A stretch of DNA of 36,792 nt from Candidatus Methylomirabilota bacterium. Its GTDB lineage: Bacteria > Methylomirabilota > Methylomirabilia > Rokubacteriales > DASRDR01. This document shows positions 23,842 through 32,641 of the stretch, in pieces. A program made the translations under genes and the position numbers. Below the pieces are notes generated by a model that worked only from the letters and a program-made list of their open reading frames with translations, searched no databases and was not told the origin of the DNA. The stretch lies in the NCBI GenBank assembly GCA_036005065.1, contig DASYQW010000300.1, positions 1 through 36,792 on the forward strand, in the 5' to 3' direction. Positions within the stretch are counted from its first letter, which is position 1, and every line of letters begins with the position of its first letter.

Positions 23842-25404
23842 TCACTCCGCGGCTTCGGCGGCGGGACCTCGGCTGATGTCGCCGACCGCGCGGACACGCA
23901 CGCGGAGCGAATTCCCCGGCAGATAGGCCAGCGGCAGGTCCTCCACGTCCACCACCTCGAGCGTCCGCGGGTCGGCCCCGGCCTGGACAGCCCGCGCTTC
24001 CGCCAGCCGGCGCGCCTCCGCGAGCGCCTCCTCGCGCGAGAGACCCTGGAAGATCTGATCGACCTCCCCGCTGACCTGAGCGATGGCCGCGCCCACCGCG
24101 TTCGCGACCGCCCGATGCGGCACCTGGACGACCTCCGAGATGCCGGGCAGCGTCTCCGGCACCAGAAAGGCCGCGCCGCCCACCGCCACCAGCGGGGTCG
24201 GGCCGGCGTCGGTCCTCACGCGGTCGACACCGTCCTCGAGGATGTCGTGGATGCGGGCGAGGCAGGCCTCGACGAGCTGGGCGGAGAGCCCGGCCACCCG
24301 GCCCCGGTCGCCGAGGTCCACGAGTCCGGCCGCCACCGCGATGTCGGTCGAGGTCAGCGTGGGCCCGCCGAAGACGCGGCCCAGCTCCGTGAGGCGATAG
24401 CTCACGCTCCGCGGCCCGACTCGGACGGCGGGCTCGGTCGACACCAGCGAGCCCCCGCCGAGGCCGAGTGACAGGAGGTCGGGCATCCGGAAGAGCGTCC
24501 GGACGCCGCCGACCTCGACGACCGCGTTGGCCTCGCGCGGGAAGCCGCGGCGCAGGCAGCCGATGTCGGTCGTGGTCCCGCCGACGTCGATGACCACCGC
24601 GTCGGCCAGCTTCGAGAGGAACGCGGCGCCCCGCATGCTGTTGGTCGGGCCCGACGCGAAGCTGTAGACGGGAAAGCCTTCGGCCGCTTCGGCGCGCATC
24701 ACCGTGCCGTCGTTCTGGGTGAGGTAGAGCGGCGCCGACAGCCCGCTGACCCGGAGCGCCGCGACGAAGGCGCGCGTGGTGCGGCGGGCGAGATCCACGA
24801 GGCAGGCGTTCAGCAGCGTGGCGTTCTCGCGCTCCAGGAGGCCGATCCGGCCGAGCTGATGGGAGAGAGTGAGGGCGACGTCCGGACACTCCTCCTGCAG
24901 GATCGCGGCCGCCTCGACCTCGCAGGCCGGGTTGAGCGGCGAGAACACGGAGGCGATCCCGACCGAGCGGAGGCCCGACTCGCGGATCCGACGGGCGACC
25001 TGCCGCATCCCGCCGGTGTCGAAGGGCACCAGGGGGCGCCCGTCGACCTCGTGGCCGCCCTCCAGCATGAAGACCTCCCCCCGCACGAGCCCGGCCAGGT
25101 CGGCCGGCCAGTCGACGAAGGGCCCGAGCGAGGCGCTGGCCGGAAGTCCGATGCGGATCGCCGCCACCGGCGTGAGGTCTCGGCGCTGCACGATCGCGTT
25201 GGTGAAATGAGTGGTGCCGATCATCACGGCGTCCACCCGATCCCGGTCGGCCCCGGACTCGTCGACCAGGGCAGCGAGCGCACGCGTGATCCCGCTCGTC
25301 ACGTCCCCGGTCGTCGGGGTCTTGACCGCGTGGACGACGCGCTCACCTTCGAGCAGGACGGCGTCGGTATTGGTGCCGCCCACGTCGATGCCGATCCGCC
25401 TCAT
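23842..25404 (-). CDS. Hydantoinase/oxoprolinase A-type protein (short form)
   Basis: The ATG at 25404 begins MRRIGIDVGGTNTDAVLLEG, the ATP-binding opening of the hydantoinase A/acetone carboxylase beta family; the frame extends upstream but without family sequence. A second sugar-kinase-like loop is VVIDVGGTTTDIGCLRRG, and IGTTHFTNAIVQRR and SLGLGGGS are other landmarks. The 520-aa length fits the short class that pairs with DUF917 proteins rather than the 680-aa HyuA. It likely takes part in ATP-dependent opening of a hydantoin-like or related cyclic amide. The DUF917 gene is about 1.4 kb upstream on the same strand, with an opposite-strand SGNH gene between them. Confidence 0.85.
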   Translation of the reverse strand: MRRIGIDVGGTNTDAVLLEGERVVHAVKTPTTGDVTSGITRALAALVDESGADRDRVDAVMIGTTHFTNAIVQRRDLTPVAAIRIGLPASASLGPFVDWPADLAGLVRGEVFMLEGGHEVDGRPLVPFDTGGMRQVARRIRESGLRSVGIASVFSPLNPACEVEAAAILQEECPDVALTLSHQLGRIGLLERENATLLNACLVDLARRTTRAFVAALRVSGLSAPLYLTQNDGTVMRAEAAEGFPVYSFASGPTNSMRGAAFLSKLADAVVIDVGGTTTDIGCLRRGFPREANAVVEVGGVRTLFRMPDLLSLGLGGGSLVSTEPAVRVGPRSVSYRLTELGRVFGGPTLTSTDIAVAAGLVDLGDRGRVAGLSAQLVEACLARIHDILEDGVDRVRTDAGPTPLVAVGGAAFLVPETLPGISEVVQVPHRAVANAVGAAIAQVSGEVDQIFQGLSREEALAEARRLAEARAVQAGADPRTLEVVDVEDLPLAYLPGNSLRVRVRAVGDISRGPAAEAAE

Positions 25405-25471
25405 GTCCGGCTCGGCTCCCGTTGTTCCTTGCCGACAGCCGGGCCGTCGCCTATCATCGTAGCCACCCGGG

Positions 25472-26851
25472 ATGAAGCGCCAACCGCTGGCAGTCATCGC
25501 CGACGCCGCTTTCCTGATCGCCGGTCTGTTCGTCTTGTACACCGTCTTCGGCGGTGCAGTCCGATGGAAGACCGCGCTGTTCCGGATCACCCTGACCGAG
25601 CCGACCCGCCCGCTCCAGATCTGCCTCCTCGCGCTCGTGATCAAGATGCTGTTCGGCCTGGAAAGGGGACTGTTCGCATCTCTCTCGACCCGGCGGCTCC
25701 CCGCGGTGAGTCCGCTGGCGGCCCGACTCCACCAGCTGGATCGGTATCTCCACGCGCTCTTCGTTGCCCACTGGGCGAACCTGGTCCTCGTGGTCGCGGT
25801 CGTGATGGGCTCGCTGGGTCTCTTCGAGCTTTACTCCCGGCAGTTCCCTCAGACCCTGCCCCAGGCGCTGGGGAACCACCTGGCCACCGGGTACCATACC
25901 GGCCCCTCCGGAATCTACCGGTATTCGTCCGAGCTTCGGATGAACCTGATGCGGCCCAGCTACGAGCGACGCATGTACTTCAATGGGTACACCTGGCATC
26001 ACAAGACCGACTCGCTCGGGTTCCGCAATCCGGTCGAGCGCGCGACCGCATCGGTCGTGCTCCTGGGCGACTCCATGGTCTACGGGCACGGTCTGGAGGA
26101 AACGTCGACCGTCCGTCATCACCTGGAGGCCTTACTGGGACAGCCGGTGGCCAACCTCGGCATCCAGGGGAACGCGATCCACCAGGAATACCAGGTGCTG
26201 AAGACCTACGGCCTCAGGCTTCGCCCCCGGTACGTCTTCCTGTTCTTTCTGGCCAACGACGTCGACGACCTGGGCGCCGCGCTGACAGACAGCGAGCTCA
26301 TCGCCTTTCTCAAGACGTCCGTGACCGACCATACGACGCCGTACTTCGAGATCGACCGCCGGCCGGCCCGGCCGTTCGATCTCGAAGCATACCTGGCCGA
26401 GCTCTACGTCGTGAAGGCCTTCGATTTTCTCTGGCAGTCTCTGCGCGCCCACGGGCTGCGACGGGCCGAGGCCGCCGAGGCGCACTGGCGGACGCTGCCG
26501 CCGTTCCAGGACAGGCCGCGGATGGCCCTGGCGATGGAGTTTCACCTGCACGCCCTGCGGAAGATCCAAGACCTCGCCGACCGGCATCGCTTCGCCTTCG
26601 TGAACGTCTTCACCTATACGGGTACGGGTGTATTCCCTCAGGAGCCGATCTACGAGGGCCTGCTGGAGTCGTTCTGCCATACCCACGGCATCGCGTTCCT
26701 GAGCCTGAGATCGCCGGTCGAGCAGGCGATCGAGAGCGGCCAGGACGTGTTCCTGAAAAGGGACGGGCACTTCTCGGACCGCGGGGCGAGCCTGGCGGCC
26801 GAGGTGCTGGCCCGGTACGTCGACGATCACCCGCCCCCGGCACGCCCCTGA
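25472..26851 (+). CDS. Membrane-anchored SGNH/GDSL-type hydrolase
   Basis: This 459-aa protein begins with several membrane helices (about residues 7-30, 46-65 and 98-120). A large extracytoplasmic domain follows. The SGNH block I is VVLLGDSMVYGHG with Ser201; a NLGIQGNAIHQEYQ segment supplies the block II/III Gly and Asn; FFLANDVDDL follows. The C-terminal block V is DGHFSDRG, with Asp and His of the triad. Such enzymes add or remove acyl groups on polysaccharides or cell-wall glycans. The ATG at 25472 is used. Its 3' end overlaps the 3' end of the DUF917 gene by 25 nt on the opposite strand. The intrusion between two otherwise paired genes is unusual. Confidence 0.8.
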   Translation: MKRQPLAVIADAAFLIAGLFVLYTVFGGAVRWKTALFRITLTEPTRPLQICLLALVIKMLFGLERGLFASLSTRRLPAVSPLAARLHQLDRYLHALFVAHWANLVLVVAVVMGSLGLFELYSRQFPQTLPQALGNHLATGYHTGPSGIYRYSSELRMNLMRPSYERRMYFNGYTWHHKTDSLGFRNPVERATASVVLLGDSMVYGHGLEETSTVRHHLEALLGQPVANLGIQGNAIHQEYQVLKTYGLRLRPRYVFLFFLANDVDDLGAALTDSELIAFLKTSVTDHTTPYFEIDRRPARPFDLEAYLAELYVVKAFDFLWQSLRAHGLRRAEAAEAHWRTLPPFQDRPRMALAMEFHLHALRKIQDLADRHRFAFVNVFTYTGTGVFPQEPIYEGLLESFCHTHGIAFLSLRSPVEQAIESGQDVFLKRDGHFSDRGASLAAEVLARYVDDHPPPARP

Positions 26852-27936
26852 CGCGGGCCTGGCTGCCGAAAAACCGACCGGAAATCCAGGTCGTAGCCGA
26901 AGGCGCGCGGCCCCACGTGCTCGAGGCCCTTGGGCGTCAACAGGATCGGCGGCGCCGGCAGGGCGGCCACGGTGACCCGCTGGCCGTACCGCAGGGTCTC
27001 CGTCCCGATGGCCTCCCCGGAGACGGGGTCCAGGACGCAGATCAGATCGGGCGTCATCACCCGCGGCTCGCCGTCGAGCCACCCGGCGGCGAACTCGTTC
27101 TGGAACGCAAGCGTGAAGAACCGCCCCTTGTACTCGTCGAGCCCGTCGATCGCCGTCGTCCCGCGCAGGAACCCCTCCGTCGTACGCCGGCTGACGTCCT
27201 GCACCTTGCCCTTGAAGAGGAGGAGGCCGCCCTCCGCCTCCAGCACGGCCTGCACCGGATCGCGGTGGCCGCGTCGGGCCGCCTGCACGATCTCGCCGAT
27301 CCGGATCGCCTTCGTCACGGTGTAGAGGATGCCGCACTCCTTCACTTCTCGGCCGGTCCGGGGCGCCTTGCAGGTGGCGGCGGTCGAGCCGACCTCGGTG
27401 GTCACCCTCCGCGAGAGCCGCTCCATCCACTTCCAGCTCGCCGCCCGGGCGACGATCACCACGTTGTCCCGCACGTCGGCCAGCGTCAGCGGGTACATCG
27501 GGAGATCCTCGATGGCGAAGCTCGTCATCTGGGCCTCCGGGAAGGCCCGGCCCATGGCGTCCGCATCCACCACCGGGATGTCGAGCAAGGCCGCCGCCAT
27601 GAATGGCACGAGCGCGTTGCCGCCCCCGATCTCGACCGCCATCACCGCCTGGAAGCGACGGCCGAGGTACGCCTCCATCAGGCGGACGGCGCGGGTGATG
27701 ACCTGGGGGTCCTGGAGGCGCTCCTGCCCGACCAGCGGCGCCCCCATGTAAGAGACCACCGCCACCAAATCCTGGTCGGCCAGGGCGACGGGATCCATGA
27801 GCTTGACGATCGTGCCCTGGCGGTAGAGCGTGCGCAAGTTGAGCAGGCCGTGATACGGGCTGCCGCCCCCGCCGGTGCCGAGGATCCAGGCGCCGATGGC
27901 GAGCGATTCGATCTCCGCTGACGACACCGCTCTCAC
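26827..27936 (-). CDS. DUF917 protein (S-methyl thiohydantoin desulfurase-like)
   Basis: This 369-aa protein opens with IGAWILGTGGGGSPYHGLLN, the Gly-rich hallmark of DUF917 (Pfam PF06032, now named for S-methyl-thiohydantoin desulfurase). Further landmarks are VAVVSYMGAPLVGQERL, EIGGGNALVPFMAAAL, PVVDADAMGRAFPEAQMTSF and a C-terminal TPKGLEHVGPRAFGYDLDF. The family partners with hydantoinase A proteins in degrading hydantoin-type heterocycles. The start is GTG at 27936; GTG at 27927 is possible. Its 3' end overlaps the SGNH gene, and the hydantoinase gene follows beyond it on the same strand. Confidence 0.85.
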   Translation of the reverse strand: MRAVSSAEIESLAIGAWILGTGGGGSPYHGLLNLRTLYRQGTIVKLMDPVALADQDLVAVVSYMGAPLVGQERLQDPQVITRAVRLMEAYLGRRFQAVMAVEIGGGNALVPFMAAALLDIPVVDADAMGRAFPEAQMTSFAIEDLPMYPLTLADVRDNVVIVARAASWKWMERLSRRVTTEVGSTAATCKAPRTGREVKECGILYTVTKAIRIGEIVQAARRGHRDPVQAVLEAEGGLLLFKGKVQDVSRRTTEGFLRGTTAIDGLDEYKGRFFTLAFQNEFAAGWLDGEPRVMTPDLICVLDPVSGEAIGTETLRYGQRVTVAALPAPPILLTPKGLEHVGPRAFGYDLDFRSVFRQPGPRQGRAGGG

Positions 27937-28428: not shown

Positions 28429-29295
28429 GTGACCCGAGGCTCCTCGATCACGCTGGCCGGGCTGGTGGCCGGCGCGCTCCTGGGGCTCCTCTTCGCCGAG
28501 CGCCGGCGCCCGCTCCGGCCCCGGGTGGAGCGGACGCTGCCGCACACCGGGCGCAACGTGGTCATCGCCGCTCTGGGCGCCGTGGCGACCGGCCTCACCG
28601 AGGCGGCCGTAGGACAGCCGGTCGCCCGCTGGGCCGCCGCTCGTCGAGTCGGCCTGCTCCGCGTGCTGCCGGTCCCGCTCCAGGTGGCCAGGGGCGTCGC
28701 CGGCTTCCTGCTGCTGGACTACACGCTCTGGCTCTGGCACCGGTGGAACCACCGCGTTCCCCTCCTCTGGCGCTTCCACGTGGTCCACCATGTCGACCGG
28801 GACCTCGACGCTTCCACCGGAATCCGGTTCCACTTCGGCGAGCTCGCGCTCAGCACCGGATTCCGAGTCGGCCAGCTCCTCCTCCTCGGGATCGAGCGCG
28901 AGACCTTCTTCGCCTATCAGGGCGTCCTCATGCTCTCGGTGTTGTTCCATCACAGCAACCTGCGGCTGCCGCTCGCGCTCGAGCGTCGCCTGGTATCGCT
29001 GGTCGTGACGCCTCGCATGCACGGGATTCACCACTCCGTCGTCGAGCACGAAACGGACAGCAACTTCTCGAGCCTGCTGACCTGCTGGGATCGGCTCCAC
29101 GGCACGCTGCGGCTGAACGTGCCGCACGACGCGATCGCGGTCGGGATCCCCGCCTATCGGAGCCCGGCCGAGGTCCGACTCGCCCGCGTGCTCGCCCTGC
29201 CTTTCGAGCGCCAGCGGCCCAGCTGGCAGTTCCCGGACGGCGAGCGGCCTCGCCCCGGGCGGACCGCAGGCTCGCGCGCCCGCCTGGCGCCCTGA
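28429..29295 (+). CDS. Sterol desaturase/fatty acid hydroxylase family membrane di-iron protein
   Basis: This 288-aa integral membrane protein carries the histidine clusters of the FA_hydroxylase family: HRWNH (104-108), HVVHH (117-121), LFHHSN (174-175) and HGIHH (198-202). These bind two irons for oxygen-dependent hydroxylation or desaturation of a lipid or isoprenoid. Hydrophobic segments near residues 8-22, 43-62 and 85-103 and around 145-172 fit the fold. The start is GTG at 28429. The gene is convergent with the metallophosphoesterase gene. The substrate is unknown; bacterial relatives act on sterols, hopanoids, carotenoids or fatty acyl groups. Confidence 0.88.
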   Translation: MTRGSSITLAGLVAGALLGLLFAERRRPLRPRVERTLPHTGRNVVIAALGAVATGLTEAAVGQPVARWAAARRVGLLRVLPVPLQVARGVAGFLLLDYTLWLWHRWNHRVPLLWRFHVVHHVDRDLDASTGIRFHFGELALSTGFRVGQLLLLGIERETFFAYQGVLMLSVLFHHSNLRLPLALERRLVSLVVTPRMHGIHHSVVEHETDSNFSSLLTCWDRLHGTLRLNVPHDAIAVGIPAYRSPAEVRLARVLALPFERQRPSWQFPDGERPRPGRTAGSRARLAP

Positions 29296-29384: not shown

Positions 29385-30185
29385 TCAGAACCGGCCGCGG
29401 GCCCGCTCCTTCACCGGCAGCGACTCGAGACAACAGGTCCACCACCCGGTACGGATGGTCTCGGCGAACTCCGACGGGAGAGCCTCCTGCTCCATCTCGC
29501 GGGCGAGCGCCTCGTGGTCGTAGTGCACCGGCACGAACTCGACCACGAGGTCCGGATCGGCGGTCAGGAGGGCATACCAGACCGCGGAGGTCCCGTCGTT
29601 CTCCGGTCGCCCGATCACCCCGACGTTCACGGCATGCCGGCCGCTCGGCAGGGCGCGCCGCCACTTGATCCCCGTGTGGGTGACGCCGAGCACGTCGGCC
29701 TCGTAGCGTCGGAAGAAGTGCTCCAGGAGGCCGTTCGGTGTCGTGCTCTCCCAGAGGAACTCGTTGATCTGGCGCGGCGAGCCGTGGACCAGGAGCAGGC
29801 GGTAGGGGCCGAGCGCCAGGCGCCGCGCCGGAGGCAGGCTCCCGAGCCATCGCCGGTTCTCGGTCGAGGTATGTCCCAGCGTGTAGGCATACGAGAGGTG
29901 GGCGAAGCGGTTGTCGCGTGGATCGGTGTAGCCGCAGCCGCAATCGGTCCGCCCCTCGGCGATCGACAGGTCGTAGTTGCCCTGCAGGCAGTGGACGCCG
30001 GCGTCCCGGAGGAGCGGGAAGACCCGGTCGGGATGCGGGCCGAAGCCGCCCACATCGCCCAGACAGAAGACGGCTTCCGCGCCCCGGCGGCGAGTGTCGG
30101 CCAGCGTCGCGTCGAGAGCCAGGTAGTTGCTGTAGACTCCGCCGATGAGCGCGATGCGCCGGTACGAGCTCAGAAGTTGGCGCAT
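29385..30185 (-). CDS. Metallophosphoesterase-like protein with altered first metal motif
   Basis: This 266-aa protein starts at the ATG at 30185, inside the 3' end of the radical SAM gene (16-nt overlap). Calcineurin-like motifs are CLGDVGGFGPHPD (Asp44), GNYD (Asn70, Asp72), LLVHGSP (His134) and VLGVTHTG (His170). The first motif, normally SDIHxN, reads IGGVYSN (residues 14-20), so the first Asp and His ligands are absent. The last motif lacks the usual GHTH first His. Other conserved segments are DCGCGYTDPRDN (two cysteines) and EFLWESTTPNG. I believe this marks a distinct subfamily rather than a broken gene, because the rest of the protein is intact. It is translationally coupled to a radical SAM enzyme. 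Confidence 0.78.
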   Translation of the reverse strand: MRQLLSSYRRIALIGGVYSNYLALDATLADTRRRGAEAVFCLGDVGGFGPHPDRVFPLLRDAGVHCLQGNYDLSIAEGRTDCGCGYTDPRDNRFAHLSYAYTLGHTSTENRRWLGSLPPARRLALGPYRLLLVHGSPRQINEFLWESTTPNGLLEHFFRRYEADVLGVTHTGIKWRRALPSGRHAVNVGVIGRPENDGTSAVWYALLTADPDLVVEFVPVHYDHEALAREMEQEALPSEFAETIRTGWWTCCLESLPVKERARGRF

Positions 30186-31066
30186 GACATCCCGGTCTCG
30201 AAACAGGTGTAACACGCCGCGTGATCGAGCGACGCCGGCCCGAGGGCGTCGGCCAGGCGGCCGGTCCCGACCCTGGCCTGCCGCAACCCGGCCAGGATGG
30301 GGCACGCGTAGATGCCCCCGTCCGCGATGGCCCGCGTCTCGGTACACTGCAACCGCGCCGTGTCGTAGCCGTCGAGAAGCTCGGGCGTCAGGCGCCGATC
30401 CGGCTCCCGACCGGCCAGCCGGCCCATCGCGAAGATCGGGATGATCTTGATGCGCGGCCGATCCACGCCGGCCTCCAGGAGGAGGCGTCGCAGCCGGTCG
30501 TAGAGCCCCGGCCCGCGTCCGGCCGCGGCGACTTCCGTCGCCGTCACGATCGGGTAGAGTCGCCGGGCGCTCAACCGGCAAATGGCCGCCAGCGCGCGAT
30601 CGAAGCTCCCGTGACCGCGGACGGCGTCGTTCTCGTCGGCCGTCGCCCCGTCCAGGCTCACGCGGATCTCCAGGGAGTACGCCGCGGCTGCGGCCAGCGC
30701 GGCCAGGCGATCGGCCATCCCGTCGTCGATCAGCGTGCCATTGGTCAGGACGGTGGTCGGAGCCACGGCCAGGGCGTCGGCGAGCAGGTCGAGGAGTTCC
30801 GGATGGAGGAAGGGCTCCCCGCCGGTGAAGTAGAACTCCCGGACACCGAGCTGCTCGGCCTCCTCGATGTAGCGACGGATACCCGTCGCGTCCAGTCCCG
30901 GAAGCCAGGGGTGCCGCGGGCCGCTCGCGTTGAAGCAGTGCCGGCAGGCGAGGTTGCAGAGGGTCCCGGTGAGCTGGAACCAGAGGCTCCGCAACTCGCG
31001 GAATGGCGCGGCCGGCGCCGCCGTCTGCGCGAGTCTCCGGGCTCCCGCTCCTTCGTTGTCGTTCAC
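30170..31066 (-). CDS. Radical SAM protein with SPASM-like C-terminal cysteines
   Basis: This 298-aa enzyme has the cluster motif CNLACRHC (Cys37, Cys41, Cys44), the FTGGEPFLHPE motif that follows, and an RVSLDGA strand. The C-terminal region has cysteines in LQCTETRAI, GGIYACPILAG, and CYTCFETGMSC, the spacing of a SPASM or twitch domain with auxiliary iron-sulfur clusters. Such enzymes modify peptides or small substrates. The ATG at 31066 is used. It overlaps the downstream phosphoesterase gene by 16 nt. No obvious short precursor peptide gene is adjacent. The end of the upstream flavin reductase gene lies about 30 nt away. Confidence 0.88.
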   Translation of the reverse strand: MNDNEGAGARRLAQTAAPAAPFRELRSLWFQLTGTLCNLACRHCFNASGPRHPWLPGLDATGIRRYIEEAEQLGVREFYFTGGEPFLHPELLDLLADALAVAPTTVLTNGTLIDDGMADRLAALAAAAAYSLEIRVSLDGATADENDAVRGHGSFDRALAAICRLSARRLYPIVTATEVAAAGRGPGLYDRLRRLLLEAGVDRPRIKIIPIFAMGRLAGREPDRRLTPELLDGYDTARLQCTETRAIADGGIYACPILAGLRQARVGTGRLADALGPASLDHAACYTCFETGMSCANF

Positions 31067-31095: not shown

Positions 31096-32532
31096 TTAAA
31101 CCCGACGGGCCGCAGATCGAAGTCGGCGCCACGCCCCCAGCGCGGCCCGCAGGAGCCGGCCGGCGACGCCACCGAAGAACCGGTCTGCGACCACCGTCCC
31201 GATCGCCTGCTGGACCGCGTCCGAATAGGTCGGGTAGACGTGCATGGTGGTGGCGATCCGGCGGGGCCGGAGACCGAGGGTGAGAGCCAGGGCCACCTCC
31301 GTGATCGCCTCCCCGGCGCGCTGCCCGACGATGGTGGCGCCGAGGAGCGCGCCGTCTCCACGATGGATGAGCTTGACGAAGGCCTCGGCATCGTCCTCGC
31401 ACACCGCCCGGTCGATCAGGGCTCCGTCCCGCCGGGTCACCCGCACCCCCTCCCCCAGCCGGCGCCGGGCCTCCGCCTCGGTGAGGCCCACGTGCGCGAC
31501 CTCGGGATCGGTGAAGGTCGTCCACGGCACGACGTCCGTGACGCCGGCGCCGCCGAAGGGCAGGAGCGCGTTGCGGACAGCGTGGAAGGCCTGCCAGCCC
31601 GCAAAGTGGGTGAACTGATAGCCGCCGACACAGTCGCCGGCCGCGTAGATGTGGGAAACCGTCGTGCGCAGCCGGCGATCCACGGCGATCCCGTCGGTGG
31701 CCGAGTACTTCACGCCGATCGTCTCCAGTCCCAGGCCGTCGACGCGAGGCGTCCGCCCGACGGCGACCAGCAGCAGGTCGCCACGGACCTCGCGATCCGC
31801 CACGCGCAGGACAGAGGTCTCCCCGTCGCGCCGCACCGCGCTGACCCGGCCCTGGACGAGATCGATGCCCTCGCGGGCGAACACCCGGCCCAGCGCCTCG
31901 GCCGCCTCCGGCTCGTCCCTCGGCAAGAGCCGCTCGCCGACGAGCGTGACCTCGGCCCCGAGCCGGCGGTAGGCCTGGGCGAGCTCGACGCCGACCGGCC
32001 CGGCCCCGATCACCAGCAGGTGCCCGGGCAGGCGATCGTTGTCGAAGATCGTCTCGTAGGTGTGAAACGGGACCTCGCGCAGCCCCGGGAGATCCGGGAC
32101 CCTCGGCCGCGCCCCGGTCGCAATGACGATCCGGCGGGCGCGGAGCGACTGGTCGCCGACCCGGATCGTGTGGGGATCGGCGAAGCATGCCGGTCCGCGC
32201 ACGACCTCGATGCCTCGCTGGCGAAGCGCGTCCGGCGTCTCGCGCCGGGAGACGCGTTCGATCGCTTCGCGGACGTACGCCCGGACCCGGCCCATGTCGG
32301 TCTCGGCGGGCGGCGCGGAGACGCCGTAGCGGGCCGCCGTACGGACGGTGTGGGCCGCCTTTGCCGCCTTCAGGAGCGCCTTGCTCGGCACGCAGCCGGT
32401 CCAGGTGCAGTCGCCACCGATGTGGTGGCCCTCGACCAGCGCGACCCGGACACCGAAGCGAGTCGCCACCTCCGCTGCCGCCAGGCCGGCGCTGCCGGCA
32501 CCGATGACGACCAGGTCGTGAGTATCCGACAT
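31096..32532 (-). CDS. Pyridine nucleotide-disulfide oxidoreductase (mercuric reductase/dihydrolipoyl dehydrogenase-like)
   Basis: The ATG at 32532 gives MSDTHDLVVIGAGSAGLAAA, the FAD-binding start. The redox-active disulfide is GGDCTWTGCVPSK (Cys42, Cys47). The NAD(P)H-binding motif is LLVIGAGPVGVELAQAYRRL, and the second FAD motif is IYAAGDCVGG. The C-terminal dimerisation domain has MHVYPTYSD, where the usual catalytic His-Pro-Thr is Tyr-Pro-Thr and the paired Glu is Asp. This argues against a classical glutathione or lipoamide reductase and for the mercuric-reductase-like oxidoreductases of unknown substrate. The 478-aa length is standard; no N-terminal HMA domain is present. It lies upstream of the radical SAM gene on the same strand. 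Confidence 0.88.
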   Translation of the reverse strand: MSDTHDLVVIGAGSAGLAAAEVATRFGVRVALVEGHHIGGDCTWTGCVPSKALLKAAKAAHTVRTAARYGVSAPPAETDMGRVRAYVREAIERVSRRETPDALRQRGIEVVRGPACFADPHTIRVGDQSLRARRIVIATGARPRVPDLPGLREVPFHTYETIFDNDRLPGHLLVIGAGPVGVELAQAYRRLGAEVTLVGERLLPRDEPEAAEALGRVFAREGIDLVQGRVSAVRRDGETSVLRVADREVRGDLLLVAVGRTPRVDGLGLETIGVKYSATDGIAVDRRLRTTVSHIYAAGDCVGGYQFTHFAGWQAFHAVRNALLPFGGAGVTDVVPWTTFTDPEVAHVGLTEAEARRRLGEGVRVTRRDGALIDRAVCEDDAEAFVKLIHRGDGALLGATIVGQRAGEAITEVALALTLGLRPRRIATTMHVYPTYSDAVQQAIGTVVADRFFGGVAGRLLRAALGAWRRLRSAARRV

Positions 32533-32641
32533 GCCTCGCCTCCGCGGCGTCTCAGCTGGCGGCCGGTCCGCAAGGCCAGCGGCTCGGCGTGCTCGGGGTG
32601 GCCACACCGGGGCCTGGCGGCGCCCCTGGTATGATAGGGCT

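Follow-up and report, generated by a model that had tools for sequence, protein, structure and literature searches.

Two overlapping genes of a Candidatus Methylomirabilota bacterium, one encoding a radical SAM enzyme and the other a protein with a metallophosphoesterase (MPE) fold, are inherited together across several bacterial phyla and probably act in a pathway for making or processing compounds in which arsenic is bonded to carbon. We consider it very likely that the link of the pair to arsenic is real. With moderate confidence, we propose that the two genes form a module of organoarsenical metabolism in which the MPE-fold protein is a reductase and the radical SAM enzyme, in place of ArsS, creates a carbon-arsenic (C-As) bond. 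Taken separately, C-As bond formation by the radical SAM enzyme seems reasonably probable to us, and the assignment of the MPE-fold protein as a reductase is a prediction that could go either way. The genes lie in a stretch of 36,792 nucleotides (the window) from a 5.6-Mb draft genome and follow each other on the minus strand, radical SAM gene first and MPE gene second.

Table 1. Features of the window discussed in the text, with positions counted from its first nucleotide.
Feature	Position	Strand	Remarks
Radical SAM gene, 298 aa, GTG start	30170-31066	minus	CX3CX2C and truncated SPASM/twitch-like region; arsenic-associated family, kin to radical SAM-ArsM fusions
Metallophosphoesterase-fold (MPE) gene, 266 aa	29385-30185	minus	Metallophos_2
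Reading-frame overlap of radical SAM and MPE genes, 16 nt	30170-30185	minus	
MerA-like FAD/NAD disulphide oxidoreductase gene	31096-32607	minus	Directly upstream of the radical SAM gene, 29-nt gap
Fatty-acid-hydroxylase-family gene	28429-29295	plus	Convergent, downstream of the MPE gene

The two genes are inherited as a pair

The initial annotation had described a 16-nt overlap between the two genes and proposed that their products are coupled. Both genes are real, the overlap is exactly as described, and the coupling is borne out by related genomes. Among 148 relatives of the window genome, the MPE gene was present in 21, every one of which also carried the radical SAM gene (21/21), and the same was true of the 18 genomes with an MPE gene among 343 Planctomycetota (18/18). 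A relative of the radical SAM gene was found without the MPE in three of the 148 relatives, and the MPE of one draft genome (G149, L041), in which no radical SAM gene was seen, was the single exception to the pairing. MPE homologues that are approximately 57-75% identical occur in Methylomirabilota, Planctomycetota, Calditrichota, Latescibacterota (one member in 64 genomes) and one unassigned bacterium. The 16-nt overlap was seen again at 8 other Rokubacteria-type loci; at the remaining loci the genes overlap slightly, abut or lie at most about 160 nt apart, except for three loci at which the spacing is 0.4-2.2 kb. Pairwise identities of the radical SAM and MPE proteins are correlated (r = 0.85, a value reached in none of 2000 permutations), and the median identity is 60% for the MPE and 43% for the radical SAM protein. 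One genome (G069) was seen to carry two sets of radical SAM, MPE and PrdB-like genes on separate contigs, C12 (L059) and C21 (L058).

The absence of a precursor peptide gene, also proposed earlier, agrees with what we found: the gap between the radical SAM gene and the gene upstream is a mere 29 nt, and neighborhood clustering of ORFs of at least 60 aa revealed no small gene conserved beside the pair, except for a split selenoprotein in some relatives. A role for the pair in RiPP maturation was dropped on these grounds.

The phosphoesterase fold retains the ligands of one metal site

The MPE protein scored 29.9 bits against Metallophos_2 in Pfam (cut-off 27), and its structure model (pLDDT 85) best matched SapH, an Ap4A hydrolase and phosphodiesterase (3qfm, TM 0.76-0.77, E 1e-16), which together place it in the calcineurin-like metallophosphoesterase fold. 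The metallophosphoesterase 3rqz was another close match among solved structures, and Vps29 structures were also among the fold matches. Motif I reads GGVYSN in the window, a sequence that had been singled out as altered and as the sign of a specialized subfamily. Alignment of the family confirmed both points, as the consensus GG[VIL]Y[SNA]N was conserved in all 44 members, with G15, G16, Y18 and N20 identical in each. Given this conservation, and with the pair present in relatives, neither of the outcomes named in advance as counting against the proposal (a motif confined to one sequence, a pairing absent from related genomes) was observed. The conservation also excludes a sequencing error or a pseudogene as the source of GGVYSN. 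The segment TH[TS]G was likewise found in 44/44 members, and D44, N70, Y71, H134, H170, G172, C82, C84 and C252 were identical in all of them, the last of these lying in a C-terminal tail, GWWT[T/C]CLE.

In this superfamily, of which Mre11 is an example, metal 1 is coordinated by D-x-H in motif I together with the second His of GHxH; the ligands of metal 2 are the GNHD Asn, the His of motif IV and the first GHxH His, and the two metals are bridged by the GD Asp. When relatives that have GHTH (L110 and the ars-operon proteins described below) or GHCG (Roseomonas) were aligned with the MPE without gaps, H170 fell at the first His of GHTH and G172 at the second, which rules out the original reading that the first His had been lost. 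Because the retained His aligns with the first, the ligands that are gone are exactly those that serve metal 1 only (G15 G16 Y18 and G172, that is, D to G, H to Y and H to G), and the metal-2 ligands, assigned by homology as D44, N70, H134 and H170, are kept. The accompanying statement that all other segments were intact is not supported either; the losses add up to exactly one metal site. Judging from the residues present, the full two-metal set (D-x-H, GD, GNH[DE], H, GHxH) appears to be reduced to the metal-2 set alone, and the removal of one site's ligands argues against an ordinary dinuclear phosphoesterase.

MPE relatives in ars operons resemble the arsenate reductase Car1

In a plasmid search, MPE homologues with 33-37% identity turned up in ars operons of the types arsR-MPE-arsM and arsR-MPE-ACR3; they belong to Paraclostridium (arsR-MPE-arsM), Pontibacter, Mucilaginibacter, Rubrobacter and Hymenobacter. 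The relative at L104, which is 38% identical and reads GCVYGN and THTG, follows an ArsM gene that scores above its family cut-off, and ArsM adjoins the MPE gene itself at L107 and L100. The Paraclostridium homologue has the same gene arrangement as orf1, an ars-operon gene of Paraclostridium dentum that is given as approximately 40% identical to Car1 in PMC12124457. There, Car1 (Shen et al. 2024) is cited as a reductase of As(V) from Rufibacter tibetensis with two essential cysteines, Cys74 and Cys76. The cysteines C82 and C84, present in 44/44 MPE members, align with the CxC of the ars-operon homologues, and the family as a whole thus shows the Car1-type placement of CxC after GN[YH]D. In one homologue (G144), which adjoins an ArsR-like gene, the CxC falls at residues 74 and 76 when counted by eye. 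The Car1 study reportedly proposed that Cys74 attacks arsenate and that the resulting Cys74-Cys76 disulphide is recycled by thioredoxin.

The likeness to Car1 therefore lies in the calcineurin-like phosphoesterase fold and in a CxC a few residues past GNYD, as seen in the ars-operon homologues near arsR, arsM or ACR3. These homologues retain SDIH and GHTH, hence both metal sites, and no radical SAM gene is present in the operons examined, whereas the window family lacks metal site 1, carries the C252 tail and is accompanied by a radical SAM enzyme; this contrast is drawn through the ars-operon homologues. No published one-metal-site reductase of this fold was found in the literature examined. 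Two archaeal proteins of this fold that lack an assigned function, PDB 1nnw and the closely related 2gju, are also among the closest solved relatives of the MPE; motif I of 1nnw is degenerate too (ANIAGN), and the CxC is absent from it.

The MPE might instead still be a hydrolase working with one metal, cleaving an organoarsenical, phospho- or nucleotide-like, that arises after the radical SAM step. Its nearest solved structures, SapH and 3rqz, the invariance of every metal-2 ligand and the presence of phosphate and glycosyl steps in arsenosugar pathways would fit such an enzyme. We regard this as unlikely, however, given that half of the usual catalytic centre is gone with the metal-1-only ligands and that both Car1 redox cysteines are present in all 44 members, and we prefer a reductase.

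The radical SAM protein belongs to a family that is fused to ArsM

The radical SAM protein of the window scored 68 bits against Radical_SAM in Pfam (cut-off 29.5), and Radical_SAM and Fer4_12 were the only Pfam domains detected in it. It carries both hallmarks of the superfamily, CX3CX2C and GGE; C37, C41 and C44, together with G82 G83 E84 P85, were invariant in 42/42 comparable sequences. Five further cysteines, C241, C255, C285, C288 and C295, are also invariant in a chain that ends at residue 298, and they supply five of the seven cysteines of the SPASM pattern CX9-15GX4C-CX2CX5CX3C-C. The earlier label of radical SAM/SPASM is therefore sound in its first half and too generous in its second, the C-terminal part being best read, from its cysteine pattern, as a truncated SPASM- or twitch-like region rather than a full SPASM domain.

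In seven genomes, six of them planctomycete and one methylomirabilote (G072), a member of this family is fused in a single frame to ArsM. The fusions (L111:11151-13157, minus strand, and L126-L131) are 609-669 aa long and most have a CC end; L128, in which the ArsM match overruns the stop by 21 nt, was counted with them on the basis of its frame length and content, which are as in the other fusions. In the radical SAM tree, the fusions branch from within the pair family (node support 93%). More distant members (32-38%) adjoin ArsM or share its cluster at L134, L135, L137 and L138, and two of these loci also carry TIGR04282, TIGR04283 and a PiT-type transporter. A different fusion was seen at L112:6774-9312 (plus strand), where a longer radical SAM protein with more cysteines at its end is joined to ArsM in a frame of 846 aa, flanked by DUF547-like and MerA-like genes.

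No MPE partner was found in the genomes with radical SAM-ArsM fusions, so the MPE seems dispensable for the radical SAM step in some settings. This bears on the idea that the MPE is a non-catalytic partner, either an arsenic carrier or an activator of the radical SAM enzyme, in the manner of Vps29, a phosphoesterase fold that serves as a scaffold. The Vps29 structures among the fold matches and the overlapping genes, which suggest a complex, are in keeping with such a role, and the invariant C82, C84 and C252 could, from their conservation, bind As(III). Against it stand the fusions and genome G228, which do without the MPE, and the higher conservation of the MPE than of the radical SAM protein, which extends to the remaining metal site and so suggests catalysis. 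We judge a non-catalytic role improbable and retain the reductase as the preferred reading.

Arsenic pathway genes accompany the pair

TIGR04283, which like TIGR04282 bears the NCBI database name of 'arsenosugar' glycosyltransferase, was present in 21/21 pair genomes and in 28/127 others among the 148 relatives (Fisher P = 2e-12), and in Planctomycetota in 17/18 pair genomes and 110/325 others (P = 3e-7), both tests ignoring shared ancestry. In 15 of the 21 pair genomes, it lies no more than 10 kb from the pair. The association with ArsM was modest (19/21 pair genomes and 70/127 others, P = 0.001; within the class P = 0.04), again with shared ancestry ignored. In the window's own genome, ArsM and TIGR04283 both score above their cut-offs on other contigs; within the window itself no ArsM or glycosyltransferase gene lies beside the pair, and the MerA-like gene is the only neighbor of this kind. 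MerA-like relatives occur at 10/43 pair loci and elsewhere stand beside ArsS or a radical SAM-ArsM fusion. At 24/43 pair loci, none of TIGR04283, TIGR04282, ArsM and ArsS was found in the stretch examined.

An ArsM-ArsS cluster (L119) has a set of accessory genes in common with the pair loci, comprising a PiT-type transporter, a PrdB-like selenoprotein, VTT, TIGR04283, MerA-like and DUF3179 genes, and the pair therefore seems to stand in for ArsS. Across 72,556 plasmids, the sole match to the radical SAM family was on a plasmid of Roseomonas haemaphysalidis, in a cluster with a GGPYSN/GHCG phosphoesterase and TIGR04282, DUF547, VTT and MerA-like genes. This cluster also holds a phosphonate-type ABC transporter and no ArsM, and at many Planctomycetota loci a flavin oxidoreductase alone accompanies the pair. 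Both observations would suit a module that makes a non-arsenic metabolite, such as a glycosylated or peptide product, with arsenic genes as incidental neighbors, as would the weak scores of the radical SAM protein with peptide maturases. We think this very improbable, however, in view of the seven ArsM fusions inside the family, the adjacency of ArsM in several lineages, the MPE homologues in ars operons and the lack of a conserved peptide gene. An arsenic module remains our preferred interpretation.

Relation to ArsS, ArsL and ArsSM

Radical SAM enzymes have precedents for C-As bond formation, by adenosylation in ArsS and by aminocarboxypropyl transfer in ArsL, and in the literature examined these are the two kinds that make bonds of arsenic to larger carbon groups. 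Like ArsS, the radical SAM protein of the pair is encoded in clusters with ArsM, TIGR04282/TIGR04283, MerA-like, VTT/DUF547 and PrdB-like genes. It matches, however, only the N-terminal half of the ArsS profile TIGR04167 (positions 14-144 of 303), with a score of 50.7 bits against a cut-off of 300, and it lacks DUF3641, which is present in the ArsS of L054. Score, domain content and a long branch between the two in the tree rule out simple orthology with ArsS. ArsS scored above its cut-off in 1/21 pair genomes and is absent from the other 20, so the pair is not a mere accessory of ArsS, but neither is there a significant avoidance (P = 0.69).

ArsL of arsinothricin biosynthesis is also a radical SAM enzyme that is encoded beside ArsM and forms a C-As bond (PMC8552651). 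It differs from the pair protein in length and in the positions of its cysteines, having 428 aa, CX3CX2C at residues 194-201 and one predicted cluster, a distinction that rests on its published description (PMC8552651). An ArsSM fusion of a sulfate reducer, judging from the title of its paper (Yang et al. 2024, cited in PMC12124457), joins radical SAM and ArsM parts in a single chain, as do L111 and L126-L131. If its radical SAM domain were of the pair family rather than TIGR04167, a role in arsenic chemistry would already be published for the radical SAM half. Part of the novelty of the pair may already be covered by the papers on Car1, arsenosugars and ArsSM.

A proposed route

The initial annotation had suggested that the pair makes or processes an unknown small molecule. 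A small molecule still fits, and the ArsM fusions and adjacency, together with the ars-operon homologues, narrow it to an organoarsenical. From these associations we infer two reactions, their order and a product. ArsM, encoded elsewhere in the genome, would first methylate trivalent arsenic. The MPE-fold protein would then bind a pentavalent arsenical, either arsenate or a methylated form, at its single remaining metal and reduce it to the trivalent state through C82 and C84 in the manner of Car1, and C252 might contribute a third thiol. Without metal site 1, the protein would no longer have phosphatase chemistry, and a methylated substrate, which has fewer oxygens, could be accommodated. Finally, the radical SAM enzyme would place a group derived from SAM (5'-deoxyadenosyl, the one used by ArsS, or a different one) on the trivalent arsenic, and so replace ArsS in an arsenosugar-type pathway together with glycosyltransferases and flavin oxidoreductases.

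More tentatively, the pair may represent a second route to complex organoarsenicals in Methylomirabilota and Planctomycetota, in which ArsS is replaced by a distinct radical SAM family that makes the C-As bond, served by a cysteine-based redox enzyme that has one metal and arose from a phosphatase fold, and in which the product is a new arsenic compound. If so, arsenic biochemistry would gain a third radical SAM family, spread over several phyla and tied to one redox partner, and would reach into abundant and largely uncultured bacteria; a phosphatase fold would also be seen losing half of its metal centre and turning into a redox protein.

Other genes at the pair loci

A PrdB-like (D-proline reductase) gene lies downstream of the pair, beside the MPE gene, at L053, L054, L056, L058 and L059, and it also occurs at L061, L062 and L021 as well as with the radical SAM-ArsM fusion of L111 and the ArsS of L119. 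An in-frame TGA in the context TP[A/T]-U-GLCxQAVGL was conserved at the 5 loci checked, and the PrdB-like protein is therefore a probable selenoprotein of arsenic gene sets. As a defining part of the pair it was rejected, being found in only some Methylomirabilota (8/43 loci). At L055:3780-4094 (minus strand), a shortened PrdB-like gene without the stretch around the selenocysteine codon adjoins an intact pair.

At five planctomycete loci (L094:11989-13629, minus strand, and L095, L097, L098 and L101), a gamma-glutamyltransferase gene lies directly upstream of an operon of flavin oxidoreductase, radical SAM and MPE genes, possibly indicating a link to glutathione conjugates. In three related planctomycetes (L088:6692-7918, plus strand, L089 and L092), a gene like that of 3-dehydroquinate synthase (PRK06203, above cut-off) lies upstream of the pair. 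Within the window, the minus-strand frames at 23842-25644 and 26827-27936 resemble, by eye, a hydantoinase A-type protein and its partner.
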